From Odoribacter lunatus (GTDB lineage Bacteria > Bacteroidota > Bacteroidia > Bacteroidales > Marinifilaceae): a DNA stretch of 64,000 nucleotides. Positions 39,225-44,953 of the stretch are shown here, in pieces. Numbering within the stretch: the stretch's first letter is position 1; each line of letters opens with the position of its first letter. The position numbers were made by a program, and so were the translations under genes. Under the pieces are notes generated by a model that searched no databases, was not told the DNA's origin, and saw only the letters and a program-made list of their open reading frames with translations. The DNA lies in contig NZ_CALPCZ010000006.1 of NCBI RefSeq assembly GCF_943193135.1, positions 1 through 64,000 on the forward strand. Direction: 5' to 3'.

Positions 39225-41048
39225 ATGCAGAATTTAAGGAATATTGCCATTATTGCCCATGTGGACCATGGCAAAACGACCCTTGTAGATAAAATGATTT
39301 TACAGGGGAAACTATTCAGAGAGAACGAAAAACAGGGAGGCGACTTAATTCTTGACAACAATGACCTTGAACGCGAAAGAGGTATTACTATTCTTTCCAA
39401 AAATGTTTCCGTAAAATATAAGGACTACAAAATTAACATTATTGATACTCCGGGACACTCCGATTTCGGAGGAGAGGTGGAACGCGTGCTGAATATGGCC
39501 GACGGCGTACTGTTGCTGGTGGATGCTTTTGAAGGCACGATGCCTCAAACCCGTTTTGTTTTGCAAAAAGCCCTCGGATTAGGCAAGAAAGCCATTGTCG
39601 TGGTAAACAAAGTGGATAAGCCCAATTGTCGCCCGGACGAAGTGCAGGAAGAAGTATTCGACCTGATGTTTTCATTGGGCGCTTCGGAAGAACAATTGGA
39701 TTTCGTGACTGTATACGGAAGTGCCAAACAGGGCTGGATGTCTACGGACTGGCGCAAGCCGACTTCCGACATTACCCCCCTGCTGGATGCCATTATCGAA
39801 AATATTCCTGCCCCACAAGCCGCTGAAGGTACCCCACAGATGCTGATTACTTCTTTGGAGTATTCCTCTTATATCGGACGAATTGCCGTTGGTAAGCTGA
39901 CCCGCGGAATTTTAAAAGCAGGACAGGCGGTGACTCTCTGCAAACGCGACGGCGTGACGCTGGAGAAGACAAGAATCAAGGAACTCATGCTTTTCGAGGG
40001 ATTGGAAAAGCAGAAAGCGGAAGAGGTGCAAGCCGGGGAAATCTGTGCTATTGTCGGTATCGAAGGATTTGAAATCGGAGATACGATTGCCGATTATGAA
40101 AATCCGGAAGCGCTGCCGCCAATTGCCATCGACGAACCGACCATGAGCATGTTGTTCACTATCAATAACTCGCCGTTTTTCGGAAAGGACGGGAAATACG
40201 TTACCTCCCGCCATATCAAAGAGCGTCTCGACAAAGAGCTGGAAAAGAATTTGGCTTTACGGGTTGAACCGGGCGCCAGTGCCGATTCTTTTGTCGTATT
40301 CGGACGCGGTGTACTCCATTTGAGCGTATTGATTGAGACCATGCGCCGGGAAGGCTATGAGTTGCAAGTAGGACAGCCGAAAGTTATTATTAAAGAAATC
40401 GACGGCAAAAAATGCGAGCCTATCGAAGAGCTTACTATTGATATTCCCGAAGAGTTCTCCGGGAAAGCCATTGAAATGGTGACCAAAAGGAAGGGGACGT
40501 TGAGCAATATGGAGACCCGCGGAGACCGCGTACATCTGGATTTTGAAATTCCCTCCAGGGGTATTATCGGTTTGCGCAGCAATTTGCTGACCGCCTCTGC
40601 CGGAGAAGCCATTATCGCTCACCGTCTGAAAGGATTTGAACCGTATAAAGGGGAAATCGAAATGCGTATCAACGGTTCGCTGATTGCCATGGAAACGGGC
40701 GATTCGTTCGCGTATGCCATCAATAAGTTGCAGGACCGCGGTAAGTTTTTTATCGAACCGGGCGAAACTGTATACGCCGGGCAGGTTATCGGTGAAAGTA
40801 CCCGTCCCGACGATATTGTCATCAACGTCTGCAAGTCCAAGAAACTGACCAATATGCGCGCCAGCGGTTCCGATGATAAAGTTAATATCGCACCGCCCGT
40901 CAAATTCAGTCTGGAAGAAGCCTTGGAATATATACAGGAAGATGAATATGTTGAGGTTACGCCGCACTCTATGCGTCTTCGGAAAATCATTCTGGATGAA
41001 ACCGAGCGCAAACGGCATGAAAAGTCCAAGAGCAGCGTTAGCGAATAA
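39225..41048 (+). CDS. typA: Ribosome-associated translational GTPase TypA/BipA
   Basis: 607 residues, full length. G1 is [15 protein letters not shown] (about 10-24), the switch region [15 protein letters not shown]3 [12 protein letters not shown], and G4 NKVDKP. Domain II, a BipA-specific C-terminal part with [19 protein letters not shown], and a final Lys-rich tail follow. BipA binds 70S ribosomes under stress or low temperature and helps 50S assembly. It is the only gene between the sulfatase and the orphan riboswitch. Confidence 0.97.
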
Positions 41049-41115: not shown

Positions 41116-41123
41116 TATATTTG
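41116..41123 (+). promoter_or_regulatory. -7 promoter box of the cobalamin riboswitch
   Basis: TATATTTG, matching TAnnTTTG, about 10 bp before the first conserved riboswitch bases, so the riboswitch has its own start point 68 bp after typA. Confidence 0.55.
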
Positions 41124-41132
41124 TTCCTGTCT

Positions 41133-41300
41133 TTGGTGCCTTTTACCGATTACCGGGAAGGGTGAAAAGGGAATCGGGTGAGAATCCCGAACAGTACCCG
41201 CTGCTGTGAACTTCTTTATGGAAAAGCAACTTTGCCACTGTCGCATAGATCGATGGGAAGGCGCTTCACTCCGGAAGTAAGTCAGAAGACCTGCCAAATG
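41133..41300 (+). ncRNA. Cobalamin (B12) riboswitch without a downstream gene on its strand
   Basis: The order of conserved elements is that of the cobalamin aptamer: GGTGCC at 41135, GGGAAGGGTGAAAAGGGAAT at about 41154, GGTGAGAATCCCGAACAGT, CCCGCTGCTGTGA (B12 box region), GCCACTG, GGGAAGGCG, and AGTCAGAAGACCTGCC closing at 41295. These normally precede btuB or other B12 transport genes. Here a hairpin TTTCGGG/CCCGAAA (41314-41320 with 41372-41378), an 11-codon frame (41384-41419) and a strong terminator follow, then only the stop of the opposing ytfJ-like gene. The aptamer call is strong; what it regulates is open. Confidence 0.93.
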
Positions 41301-41387
41301 ATAATTTGCCAGCTTTCGGGATAAAAGCAAAGGAGCATATCTGACCTGCCATTCGGATATTTCCGATTTTCCCCGAAATTTTAATGA

Positions 41388-41447
41388 AGACCAAAGAAAA
41401 GATAAACTGTAACTGTTAGTATCTGTCTTTCTCTTTGGTCTTTTTTT
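41388..41447 (+). terminator. Terminator behind the cobalamin riboswitch
   Basis: 10-bp outer stem AGACCAAAGA / TCTTTGGTCT (41388-41397 with 41432-41441) followed by seven T. The T run reaches the stop codon of the opposing gene at 41446. It may also help end minus-strand transcripts, though its minus-strand tail is T-poor. Confidence 0.85.
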
Positions 41448-42003
41448 AAGGTGTGTGTTTGTATTTCTTAATCAATGCGTATATCTCTTTTATCTCTTCC
41501 GGGGTTAATTGCCCGGCTTTATAGAATTCAATAACGCATTCCTTATTTATCCAGATAACGACAAATTTGTTATTGACGTTTCCCAGATTCCATGCCCTGC
41601 TCAATGTCCGGTCGGGGTCGTTGTATACGTACGCCTGCGTACCGGCTATTTCGTTCCGAATCATATACCGCAACAGGGAGTTTGCCAGCAACGGGGCGTC
41701 TTTCAGATTAACGATACCATAGGATTCTATATTTTCATCCGTAAAAGGATGTTTTTTCAATTCATTCCGGAATGCTTTATTCTGGCTGGGATGGTCCGGG
41801 TCTACATAAAAGAGGAGCAAATGTTTCTTGCCCAAAGAAGGCAATAGCAGAGGTTTGTTACGGGCATCATAAATGACAATGGGGCAGACTTTTTCCCCCA
41901 CTTGCGCATACAATATCGCCTCTCCGGAGTATAAGACGAAGAACAGAAAAAAGAAGTATCTTTTTTTAATTTTTTTTCTGACAAATTCAAACATTGGCAT
42001 CAT
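41446..42003 (-). CDS. YtfJ-like thioredoxin-fold exported protein
   Basis: About 185 residues from the Met at 42003 (MMPMFEFVRKK..., signal peptide ending AILYAQ). The longer frame to 42069 is possible but adds an odd leader. The body matches the E. coli YtfJ pattern: QVGEKVCPIVIYD, LLLFYVDPDHPSQNKAF, YGIVNLKDAP, RAWNLGN, FVVIWINKEC, and GQLTPEEIKEIYALI near the end. YtfJ is a periplasmic thioredoxin-fold protein of unclear role; the CxxC motif is absent here too. Its 3' end faces the orphan B12 riboswitch, whose read-through RNA would be antisense to it. Divergent from the Omp85-like gene. Confidence 0.65.
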   Translation of the reverse strand: MMPMFEFVRKKIKKRYFFFLFFVLYSGEAILYAQVGEKVCPIVIYDARNKPLLLPSLGKKHLLLFYVDPDHPSQNKAFRNELKKHPFTDENIESYGIVNLKDAPLLANSLLRYMIRNEIAGTQAYVYNDPDRTLSRAWNLGNVNNKFVVIWINKECVIEFYKAGQLTPEEIKEIYALIKKYKHTP

Positions 42004-42090
42004 TATTGCCGTAACTATTGCGATTGTATTATCAATGCTTGATTTTACAGCAAAATACGTGCTAAACACCAGTTAAAGGATTGTATTTTC

Positions 42091-43263
42091 ATGGGTATCC
42101 GCTTTTTTTTCATATTATGCCTGCTTTGGAGTTTTTCTCCGACTGCTCAAGGGCGGTGTCATACGGAATTTCAGGATTCCCTGCCTGCAATTGCTCCCGA
42201 TTCGGCGGTGAAAATAAATATTTTTCAACGTATTTATAAGTATTTCCAAGATTCAAATGAGCCGAAAGATTATAAGAAGTTTGATTTTTCGATTATAGGA
42301 GGCCCCCATTATTCAAGCGATACGAAATTTGGCCTGGGGGTGGTAGCTTCCGGTTTGTACCGAATTGATAAGGAGGATATGACGTTGTCGCCATCGAATA
42401 TATCTCTTTACGGAGATGTTACTACTACCGGTTTTTATCTGCTGGGGATTAAGGGGAATACGATTTTCCCTCATGACCGTTACCGGCTGGATGTGAATCT
42501 TTATTTCTTTTCATTTCCCAGCAAGTACTGGGGAATAGGTTACGATAACGGCAGGCGGGATGATGATTATACGGACTATAAGAGGAAGGAAACGCAGATT
42601 AAAATAGATTTTCTTCGAAAGATTGCACCCAATACTTTTTTGGGTATTACGGGCATGTACCGGCATGTGAACGGAAAAGATTTCAAGAATCCGGCTTTCC
42701 TCTACGGGGAGAAGAAGAATATAAGCACTCTGGGGGGCGGAGTGATTGTTACGTATGATTCGAGAGATTTTATTCCTAATCCCTATAAGGGGATATATGC
42801 CAAGCTGGAACAAAAGTTTTTCCCCGGATTTTTAGGCAATTCGTATTCTTTTACCCGAACAGAAGCGTTGTTCAGGCATTATACCCGCTTGTGGAAAGGT
42901 GCTGTGCTGGCTTCTGATGTCGATGCGATATTCAATTACGGCGATACTCCCTGGAGTATGGTCGCCCTGCTCGGTAGTTCGCATCAAATGCGGGGGTATT
43001 ACGAGGGACAGTACCGCGACAATGATTTGCTGGAGGCACAAATCGAGTTGCGGCAAAAGGTATATAACCGTCACGGTATTGCCGTCTGGGCGGGAGCCGG
43101 GAATGTATTTCCCAAGATTGATAAATTCCAATGGCGCGAAACGCTTCCCTCGTATGGTATCGGTTACCGCTGGGAGTTTAAGAATCGGGTGAATATCCGG
43201 CTGGATTATGGTATCGGCAAAGGCCAAAGTTCTTTTTATTTCAATATCAATGAAGCTTTTTGA
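42091..43263 (+). CDS. Omp85 superfamily (BamA/TamA-type) beta-barrel without POTRA domains
   Basis: 390 residues with signal peptide (ends SPTAQG). Only the 16-strand surface-antigen barrel is present: strands from FDFSIIGGPHYSSDTKFGLG onward, VTYDSRDFIPNPYKGIYAKL typical of bacterial surface antigen D15, and the lid-loop motif as MRGYYEGQYRDN (about residue 300). It ends with YFNINEAF, terminal Phe. POTRA repeats of true BamA are lacking, so it is one of the small accessory Omp85 proteins of Bacteroidota, function unknown. It overlaps the start of the phosphoethanolamine transferase gene by 14 bp. Confidence 0.88.
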   Translation: MGIRFFFILCLLWSFSPTAQGRCHTEFQDSLPAIAPDSAVKINIFQRIYKYFQDSNEPKDYKKFDFSIIGGPHYSSDTKFGLGVVASGLYRIDKEDMTLSPSNISLYGDVTTTGFYLLGIKGNTIFPHDRYRLDVNLYFFSFPSKYWGIGYDNGRRDDDYTDYKRKETQIKIDFLRKIAPNTFLGITGMYRHVNGKDFKNPAFLYGEKKNISTLGGGVIVTYDSRDFIPNPYKGIYAKLEQKFFPGFLGNSYSFTRTEALFRHYTRLWKGAVLASDVDAIFNYGDTPWSMVALLGSSHQMRGYYEGQYRDNDLLEAQIELRQKVYNRHGIAVWAGAGNVFPKIDKFQWRETLPSYGIGYRWEFKNRVNIRLDYGIGKGQSSFYFNINEAF

Positions 43264-44953
43264 CACAAAATTTCTTTCCCAACCTAAGCGATTATTCTGG
43301 TTTTATGTGATGATGAATCTGATTCCCAGCATTTGTCTGGTGTTTACAGAGCCGTTTACTTTTACGGGGAAACTTGTTTTATTGATGTTCCCATTGGGAT
43401 TGTATCTTATTTTGTTGTCTCTACTGAAGAATACGGGACGCTTACAGTTGTTTCTGTTTCCTCTTTTTATTCTGCATGCTTTTCAATTGGTTTTGTTTTA
43501 CCTGTTCGGAGAAGCCGTCATTGCGGTGGATATGTTTCTGAATGTCGCCACCACGAATGTGAGTGAAGCCGGTGAATTGCTTGACAATATATGGCCTGCG
43601 ATTATAGCTGTATGCGTGTTGTATCTTCCGACGACCGTTATTGCCTGCATTACCTGCCGACGCAAAATTTATCTGCCTGCATCGTTCCGGAAAAAGACTA
43701 TCGTGGCAGGAATTGTCCTGCTGGCTGTTTCTTACGGCTTGACGTTTGTTGCCCGCAATAAGAATACGGAACGTTTCACGCTCCATGAAGATGTTTATCC
43801 CGCCAATGTGGTGTATAATCTGGGATTTGCCATTAATAAATGGCACAATAGCCGTCTTTATCCCGTTACTTCCCAGGATTTTAAATTTCATGCCGGCAAA
43901 AGCGCCTTTGCTCCTTCCCGGGAAGTTTATGTCCTTGTTGTAGGGGAAGCAAGCCGGGCTGAAAATTGGCAATTGTACGGTTATACCCGTCCGACAAATC
44001 CGCAGCTTTCCCAAGAAGCAGGGCTTATCTGGTTTGAAGATGCCATTACCCAGTCGAATACTACACACAAGAGTGTTCCGCTGATTTTGTCCGCCGCTTC
44101 GGCAGAGGATTACAGTGTTATCTATACGCACAAAAGTATTTTAAGCGCTTTTAAAGAGGCCGGATTTACCAGTGTATTTTTATCGAATCAGATTCCCAAC
44201 CGGTCATTTACGGATTTTTACGCCGATGAGGCAGACTTTCACAGAAATATCCGTACGGCCGACGAGGGGGGATTGATTACTACCAATACTTTCGATGATG
44301 CGATGCTTCCTCTTTTGCAACATTATATCGATTCTATTCCCGGCAATCTTTTTATCGTGTTGCATACGTATGGCTCCCATTTTAATTATAAGGAAAGGTA
44401 TCCGGAGAGTTTTTCCGTATTCCAACCCGATAATGCGACCAGCGTGAAGACAGAAAATAAGGAGCAATTAATTAATGCGTATGATAATAGTGTTTTATAT
44501 ACGGATGATTTCCTGCACCGGGTTATCGGTGTTTTAAATGATGCACAGGCGACTTCCGCTTTGTTTTATACTTCCGACCATGGGGAGGATTTGTTGGATG
44601 ATGCAAGGAAGCGATTTTTACACGCTTCACCCAACCCGACGTTTTATCAACTCAAGATTCCCGTCTTTATGTGGTTTTCGGATAATTATCGCACGATTTT
44701 TCCCGATAAGGTGCAATATGCCTTAAACAACCGCACGAAACCTGTTGCCACGAATGCGGCATTTCATACGATGCTGGACGCGGCGTTTATTCAATCTCCT
44801 TATCTGCAAACGGATTTATCTTTAGTCAGTCCGGATTTTAAGGTTGCCCGCCGGATGTATTTAAATGACCATGATAAACCTGTCTTTTTTTATAAAGCAG
44901 GTCTTAAAAAGGAGGATAAGGAGATGATTGACAAAAGGGGTATGAATCATTAA
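43250..44953 (+). CDS. Lipid A phosphoethanolamine transferase family protein
   Basis: 567 residues from the ATG at 43250 (in-frame 43208 start would lie deep in the previous gene). Five membrane segments occupy about residues 12-175. The periplasmic sulfatase-fold domain follows, with metal residues in VVGEASRAENWQLYGY, the nucleophile Thr in SNTTHKSVPLIL (about residue 268-279), LHTYGSHFNYKERYP, and YTSDHGEDLLDD. The family moves phosphoethanolamine from phosphatidylethanolamine to lipid A or other glycolipids and is a common route to cationic peptide resistance. Its 14-bp overlap with the Omp85 gene implies coupled translation. Confidence 0.92.
   Translation: MKLFDTKFLSQPKRLFWFYVMMNLIPSICLVFTEPFTFTGKLVLLMFPLGLYLILLSLLKNTGRLQLFLFPLFILHAFQLVLFYLFGEAVIAVDMFLNVATTNVSEAGELLDNIWPAIIAVCVLYLPTTVIACITCRRKIYLPASFRKKTIVAGIVLLAVSYGLTFVARNKNTERFTLHEDVYPANVVYNLGFAINKWHNSRLYPVTSQDFKFHAGKSAFAPSREVYVLVVGEASRAENWQLYGYTRPTNPQLSQEAGLIWFEDAITQSNTTHKSVPLILSAASAEDYSVIYTHKSILSAFKEAGFTSVFLSNQIPNRSFTDFYADEADFHRNIRTADEGGLITTNTFDDAMLPLLQHYIDSIPGNLFIVLHTYGSHFNYKERYPESFSVFQPDNATSVKTENKEQLINAYDNSVLYTDDFLHRVIGVLNDAQATSALFYTSDHGEDLLDDARKRFLHASPNPTFYQLKIPVFMWFSDNYRTIFPDKVQYALNNRTKPVATNAAFHTMLDAAFIQSPYLQTDLSLVSPDFKVARRMYLNDHDKPVFFYKAGLKKEDKEMIDKRGMNH

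Follow-up and report, generated by a model that had tools for sequence, protein, structure and literature searches.

In Odoribacter lunatus, a cobalamin aptamer followed by a tail and a terminator, with no gene behind it on the same strand, carries in its terminator loop AACTGTAACTGTT a 13-nt complement to the 5' leader of mutA, which is located on another contig and encodes the small subunit of the B12-dependent methylmalonyl-CoA mutase (TIGR00642, E=6e-176; PF01642, E=1e-153). We consider it likely that this orphan RNA is a trans-acting, B12-sensing antisense small RNA (sRNA) that would block the translation of mutA when B12 is scarce. The locus was analysed within a stretch of 64,000 nucleotides (hereafter, the window), and its features are listed in Table 1.

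Table 1. Features of the orphan RNA and its neighbours (positions in the window)
Feature	Position	Strand	Basis and remarks
bipA/typA, upstream neighbour	39225-41048		
-7 box TATATTTG	41116-41123	+	Bacteroidota consensus TAnnTTTG; read from sequence
Cobalamin aptamer RF00174, complete	41117-41312	+	cmscan, 108.8 bits, E=2.4e-26
Hairpin CAAAU(GAUA)AUUUG, overlapping the P1 3' strand	41295-41308	+	alignment and folding; arms identical and loop variable in three species
P13-like hairpin GCUUU(CGGGAUA)AAAGC	41312-41328	+	tail comparison; also present in the order's gene-linked B12 riboswitches
Alternative helix UUUCGGG (41314-41320)/CCCGAAA (41372-41378)	41314-41378	+	excludes P13; conserved in three species
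Hairpin II, loop CCUGCCAU (41345-41352)	41337-41360	+	folding and leader scan
Intrinsic terminator, hairpin (41386-41443) and U-run	41386-41447	+	between species, stem replaced and loop retained
Main pairing site AACUGUAACUGUU in the terminator loop	41405-41417	+	complementary to mutA leader sequence 24 nt before the ATG (G000:C40)
ytfJ-like gene, convergent	41446-42012 or 41446-42069, depending on start	-	
Omp85-like gene, next plus-strand gene	from 42091	+	644 bp on, behind the convergent ytfJ-like gene

The aptamer exceeds the RF00174 gathering score of 31.5 and covers model positions 1-189, so that both its score and its structure are those of a cobalamin riboswitch; it is a full-length cobalamin aptamer, for which cobalamin binding is predicted. 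The box at its 5' edge recurs in the equivalent position of both sister Odoribacter species (TATCTTTG), and its position would place the transcription start near 41130, at P1. An ORF check of the locus yielded no plus-strand ORF of note between the aptamer and the terminator, and the same-strand gene that directly follows a cis-acting B12 riboswitch is lacking here as well as in the two sister species. These features bear out the initial annotation, which had described a complete B12 aptamer with its own promoter box, a terminator without a same-strand gene and, about 650 bp on, past an opposing ytfJ-like gene, the next plus-strand gene. The source genome (2.63 Mb in 67 contigs) contains two further B12 aptamers, both of which precede genes, for a BtuB-like receptor and for nrdD, respectively; the orphan is therefore an exception in its own genome. 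The strongest B12 aptamer of the genome (L001, G000:C1:296283-296477, minus strand) is the one that precedes nrdD, the gene for the B12-independent anaerobic ribonucleotide reductase, an arrangement also found in other genera (L126, L128). The Omp85-like gene is adjoined by a gene for a lipid A phosphoethanolamine-transferase-like protein with EptA_B_N and sulfatase domains (43208-44953).

Folding predicts the terminator hairpin with a pairing probability near 1 and leaves a 7-nt centre of its loop open, whether or not the aptamer is enforced. The loop of hairpin II holds CUGCCAU (41346-41352; CTGCCAT in the DNA), the complement of the start codon region of mutA, AUGGCAG. The alternative helix can form in all three Odoribacter RNAs, and an analogous helix is predicted in the RNAs of genera g6, g11 and g14. 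The terminator was missed by a simple terminator and promoter scan, which restricts the loop size and does not recognise Bacteroidota promoters. At the sequence level, the element combines its own promoter and terminator with a lack of coding capacity, as trans-encoded sRNAs do, and it is probably a stand-alone sRNA of about 320 nt in which the aptamer is followed by a tail exposing two pairing sites and by a terminator of its own. The orphan aptamer with its promoter box, conserved terminator and no gene thus supports the earlier proposal that a B12 riboswitch here controls a small RNA rather than an mRNA.

An exact-match search of the whole genome for the loop complement, CAGYTACAGTT, produced three occurrences: the RNA itself, a site inside one coding sequence and the site 24 nt before the mutA ATG. 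In both sister genomes, CAGTTACAGTT is located at the same 24-nt distance from mutA, and the other matches to the loop complement are in coding sequence or without a gene start nearby. When 708 leaders, drawn from 865 kb of the 2.63 Mb genome, were ranked, mutA came first by run length, with 13 nt compared to 10 nt for the runner-up with the loop alone and 12 nt with the whole tail, and third by the duplex energy of the loop alone. Among these 708 leaders, only that of mutA combines a run of at least 9 nt with ATGGCAG, to which the hairpin II loop is complementary; O. laneus and the third species of the genus (loop CCUGCA), as well as g5, have a reduced form of this second site. The match to the mutA leader, the ribosome-binding region of a distant mRNA, is conserved in the three Odoribacter species and in other genera.

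Within the genus, we compared the locus with those of O. laneus YIT 12061 (G002) and of the third species (G001). Both share the aptamer, the 100-nt tail with the terminator, the lack of a gene behind them and the convergent ytfJ-like gene; G001 has a different upstream neighbour. A search with a YtfJ alignment retrieved one locus, in O. laneus. In the alignment, the terminator stem is GACCAAAG/CTTTGGTC in O. lunatus and GCCCGG/CCGGGC in O. laneus, and the loop, AACTGTAACTG, is kept despite this replacement (AACTGTAGCTG in G001, where the change results in one G-U pair with the mutA leader). The loop thus outlasts its stem, which points to a function of the loop itself. An 11-codon ATG frame (41384-41419; MKTKEKINCNC), which the initial annotation had pointed out, does exist in O. 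lunatus, but it is not conserved, with the ATG missing in G001, and was rejected as a coding candidate. An 8-nt stretch of complementarity between the P1 5' strand (41130-41137, UCUUUGGU) and the terminator 5' arm (41389-41396), a possible antiterminator, occurs in this genome only; the sister species have runs of 3-4 nt in its place.

The match to mutA is not confined to Odoribacter and recurs in about 30 related genomes. The motif ACAGTTAC is present in 40 of the 50 mutA leaders of the family and in none of the 21 from other families of the order; it follows the promoter box closely, with a variable spacing of 0 to about 24 nt between it and the ATG, an arrangement consistent with an RNA element. 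We compared the 118 tails behind the RF00174 matches of 16 genomes with the mutA leader from the respective genome; the orphan aptamers considered were those of genera other than g2, g4, g8, g15 and g16, whose leader motif is partial or missing. All 16 genomes contain an aptamer that lacks a gene before the terminator and matches the genome's own mutA leader. Such orphans with matching tails are found in 12 genera, Odoribacter and 11 further ones. The runs are 15 nt in g12, 11-13 nt in g1 (with one G-U pair in G001), 12 nt in g14, 11 nt in g7 and 10 nt in g5, g9, g11 and g17, with 9 nt plus a start-codon site in g10 and g13 and 10 nt at the start codon in g6; the g3 tail, UAUAUAUUUA-CUGUA-CUGUU, pairs with mutA with two 1-nt bulges. 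In g6, g11 and g14, the loop of the terminator hairpin exposes CTCTGCCA, the complement of TGGCAGAG in the mutA gene of the same genome; other genera have GCAGAAA or GCAGATA at the equivalent mutA position. A search with the g9 tail identified group B, 21 genomes from six genera that share an orthologous orphan RNA. This RNA has an invariant AATTCATA(A)GTAACTGT and a hairpin that keeps GCCA in its loop (mostly CUGCCAUA) and shows changes on both sides at four of the six stem pairs; the terminators of group B are too dissimilar for RNAalifold to derive a consensus. In every case read, the RNA and the mutA gene are distant from each other (319 kb and 4,782 kb in G032), so that the pairing would be in trans.

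Two pattern searches had suggested that the RNA is limited to Odoribacter: the pattern AGACCTGCN{90,120}CTGTARCTG gave, in 393 genomes of the order, five matches besides the O. lunatus locus, none of them aptamer-like, and matches to CTGTARCTGT were mostly within coding sequence. This limitation was rejected given the matching orphan RNAs in other genera; the searches misled, since both the position and the spelling of the site vary between lineages. It appears fairly likely that the orphan RNAs form a family-wide class that joins a cofactor aptamer to an antisense tail directed at the mRNA of an enzyme using the same cofactor, with pairing sites that move within the tail between genera, a constant partner and a role in setting the switch between succinate and propionate by B12.

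For single RNAs, dinucleotide shuffling (300 shuffles) gave p values of 0.003 to 0.19 for a run as long as the one observed, and of 0.003 to 0.77 for the duplex energy. When partners were swapped among seven lineages, the true pairing was equalled or exceeded in 158 of the 5040 permutations by maximum run and in 59 of the 5040 by sum of runs, a weak test because the target motif is common to all lineages. Several gene-linked tails show chance runs of 10-12 nt (L151, L234), so that run length alone is no proof. The strength of the case is the unbiased first step, from one loop through a whole genome to one leader, that of a B12-dependent gene, together with the repetition of the match with different tails.

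Two other readings of the locus do not involve mutA. A riboswitch that controls read-through into an RNA antisense to the ytfJ-like gene, similar to AspocR, would be compatible with the convergent ytfJ-like gene that follows in all three Odoribacter species and with the 8-nt pairing of the P1 5' strand with the terminator 5' arm in O. lunatus. However, this pairing is missing in the sister species, the terminator is conserved and the alignment of the three species shows no conservation 3' of it, past 41447, and thus no conserved read-through RNA antisense to the neighbour. Furthermore, the link to the ytfJ-like neighbour is limited to the genus Odoribacter; in other genera, the orphan RNAs are located elsewhere. 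The antisense effect on ytfJ put forward in the initial annotation is accordingly very improbable. Its other suggestion, a relic of a cis-acting riboswitch that lost a btuB-type gene, agrees with the absence of a gene 3' of the aptamer, but the comparison with relatives proposed there reveals no lost transporter gene: the two sister species also have no gene behind the aptamer, the tail, terminator and loop are conserved in all three, and orphan aptamers with matching tails recur in the 11 further genera. Such decay is hardly credible.

Under the preferred model, a B12-sensing sRNA directed at mutA, the tail would pair with the mutA leader and start codon when B12 is scarce, blocking translation, and B12 binding would remodel the aptamer and P13 region, relieving the block; B12 would presumably favour P13 and its contact with the aptamer over the UUUCGGG/CCCGAAA helix. 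Expression of the RNA, repression of mutA, relief by B12 and the mechanism are inferred; the direction (mutA off at low B12) is suggested by the position of the site relative to the leader and start codon, by physiology, by known B12-riboswitch RNAs and by the cobalamin response of Xylanibacter ruminicola. The main site is predicted to be equally open with and without the aptamer enforced, which counts against the preferred model and is compatible with the same pairing having the opposite sign, that is, with the B12-bound form being active or with pairing that stabilises or activates the mutA mRNA. This reversal seems unlikely, considering that the pairing covers the leader and start codon, that a repressor active at high B12 would shut the enzyme off just when its cofactor is present, that the B12-riboswitch regulatory RNAs known so far are active when B12 is low (PMC8079631) and that the enzyme goes up, not down, with cobalamin in X. 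ruminicola (PMC11575231). There is also a small chance, clearly below that of a reversed sign, that the RNA is a genuine B12-sensing sRNA whose true target or protein partner is another and whose match to mutA is incidental, as could be argued from the variation of tail architectures between lineages, the modest p values for single RNAs and the ranking of leaders from one third of the genome. Against it stand the whole-genome search that places the loop complement in the mutA leader, the recurrence of the match with different tails and the confinement of the leader motif to the family that has the RNA.

Each of several known systems has part of this design, and their combination in the orphan RNA is, to our knowledge, new; we know of no dedicated riboswitch RNA without a cis gene that is paired to the mRNA of an enzyme using the sensed cofactor. 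Rli55 of Listeria and EutX of Enterococcus are B12-riboswitch sRNAs that sequester EutV via ANTAR elements and change in length with B12 (PMC8079631). Like them, the orphan RNA places a B12 aptamer ahead of a non-coding RNA that would restrain B12-dependent catabolism, but its tail is complementary to the enzyme mRNA and ends in a single conserved terminator. AspocR, the B12-riboswitch antisense RNA of pocR in Listeria (PMC8079631), is similar in carrying a B12 aptamer on an RNA that acts antisense on B12-related metabolism; AspocR overlaps its target gene, whereas the orphan RNA and mutA are far apart. The Listeria SAM riboswitches SreA and SreB act on the prfA mRNA (PMC8079631), and SreA resembles the orphan RNA in that a riboswitch pairs in trans; in contrast, SreA is a by-product of termination that also controls an operon in cis, whereas no gene is found 3' of the orphan aptamer and the target enzyme uses the sensed cofactor. 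The gene-linked B12 riboswitches of Bacteroidales (btuB, nrdD) share the aptamer and the P13-like hairpin, with an mRNA where the orphan has the pairing tail and terminator. Among the open-access papers searched, none describes such an RNA, joins a cobalamin riboswitch with Odoribacter or joins methylmalonyl-CoA mutase with sRNA, riboswitch and base-pairing.

Methylmalonyl-CoA mutase catalyses the B12-dependent step on the way from succinate to propionate in gut Bacteroidota, and gut bacteria with the orphan RNA probably adjust this propionate-making enzyme to the B12 supply. In X. ruminicola, which belongs to another family of Bacteroidales, the mutase is the only enzyme of the propionate pathway that is raised by cobalamin at both the RNA and protein levels; the authors considered the mechanism unknown and set riboswitches aside since none was near the genes (PMC11575231). 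If a riboswitch acts in trans, distance from the genes is no argument against riboswitch control. The present case suggests that orphan riboswitches elsewhere may regulate distant targets, which could be found by matching loops to gene leaders.

Genus g3 has a further aptamer (L153, G079:C1:2447152-2447352, minus strand) that lacks both a gene within 900 bases and a good match to mutA; it may serve another target. The gene-linked tails L151, L239 and L249 (g9, g10 and g17) contain CATAACTG, a complement of the region around the mutA start codon (over 11 nt in L151, TGCCATAACTG); this could be either chance or a second contact. In the mutA leaders of g17, g10 and g9 (L108-L112, L118), the leader motif is doubled (AAACAGTTACATTAACAGTTACAGTT), and the g17 RNA fits best to the second copy.
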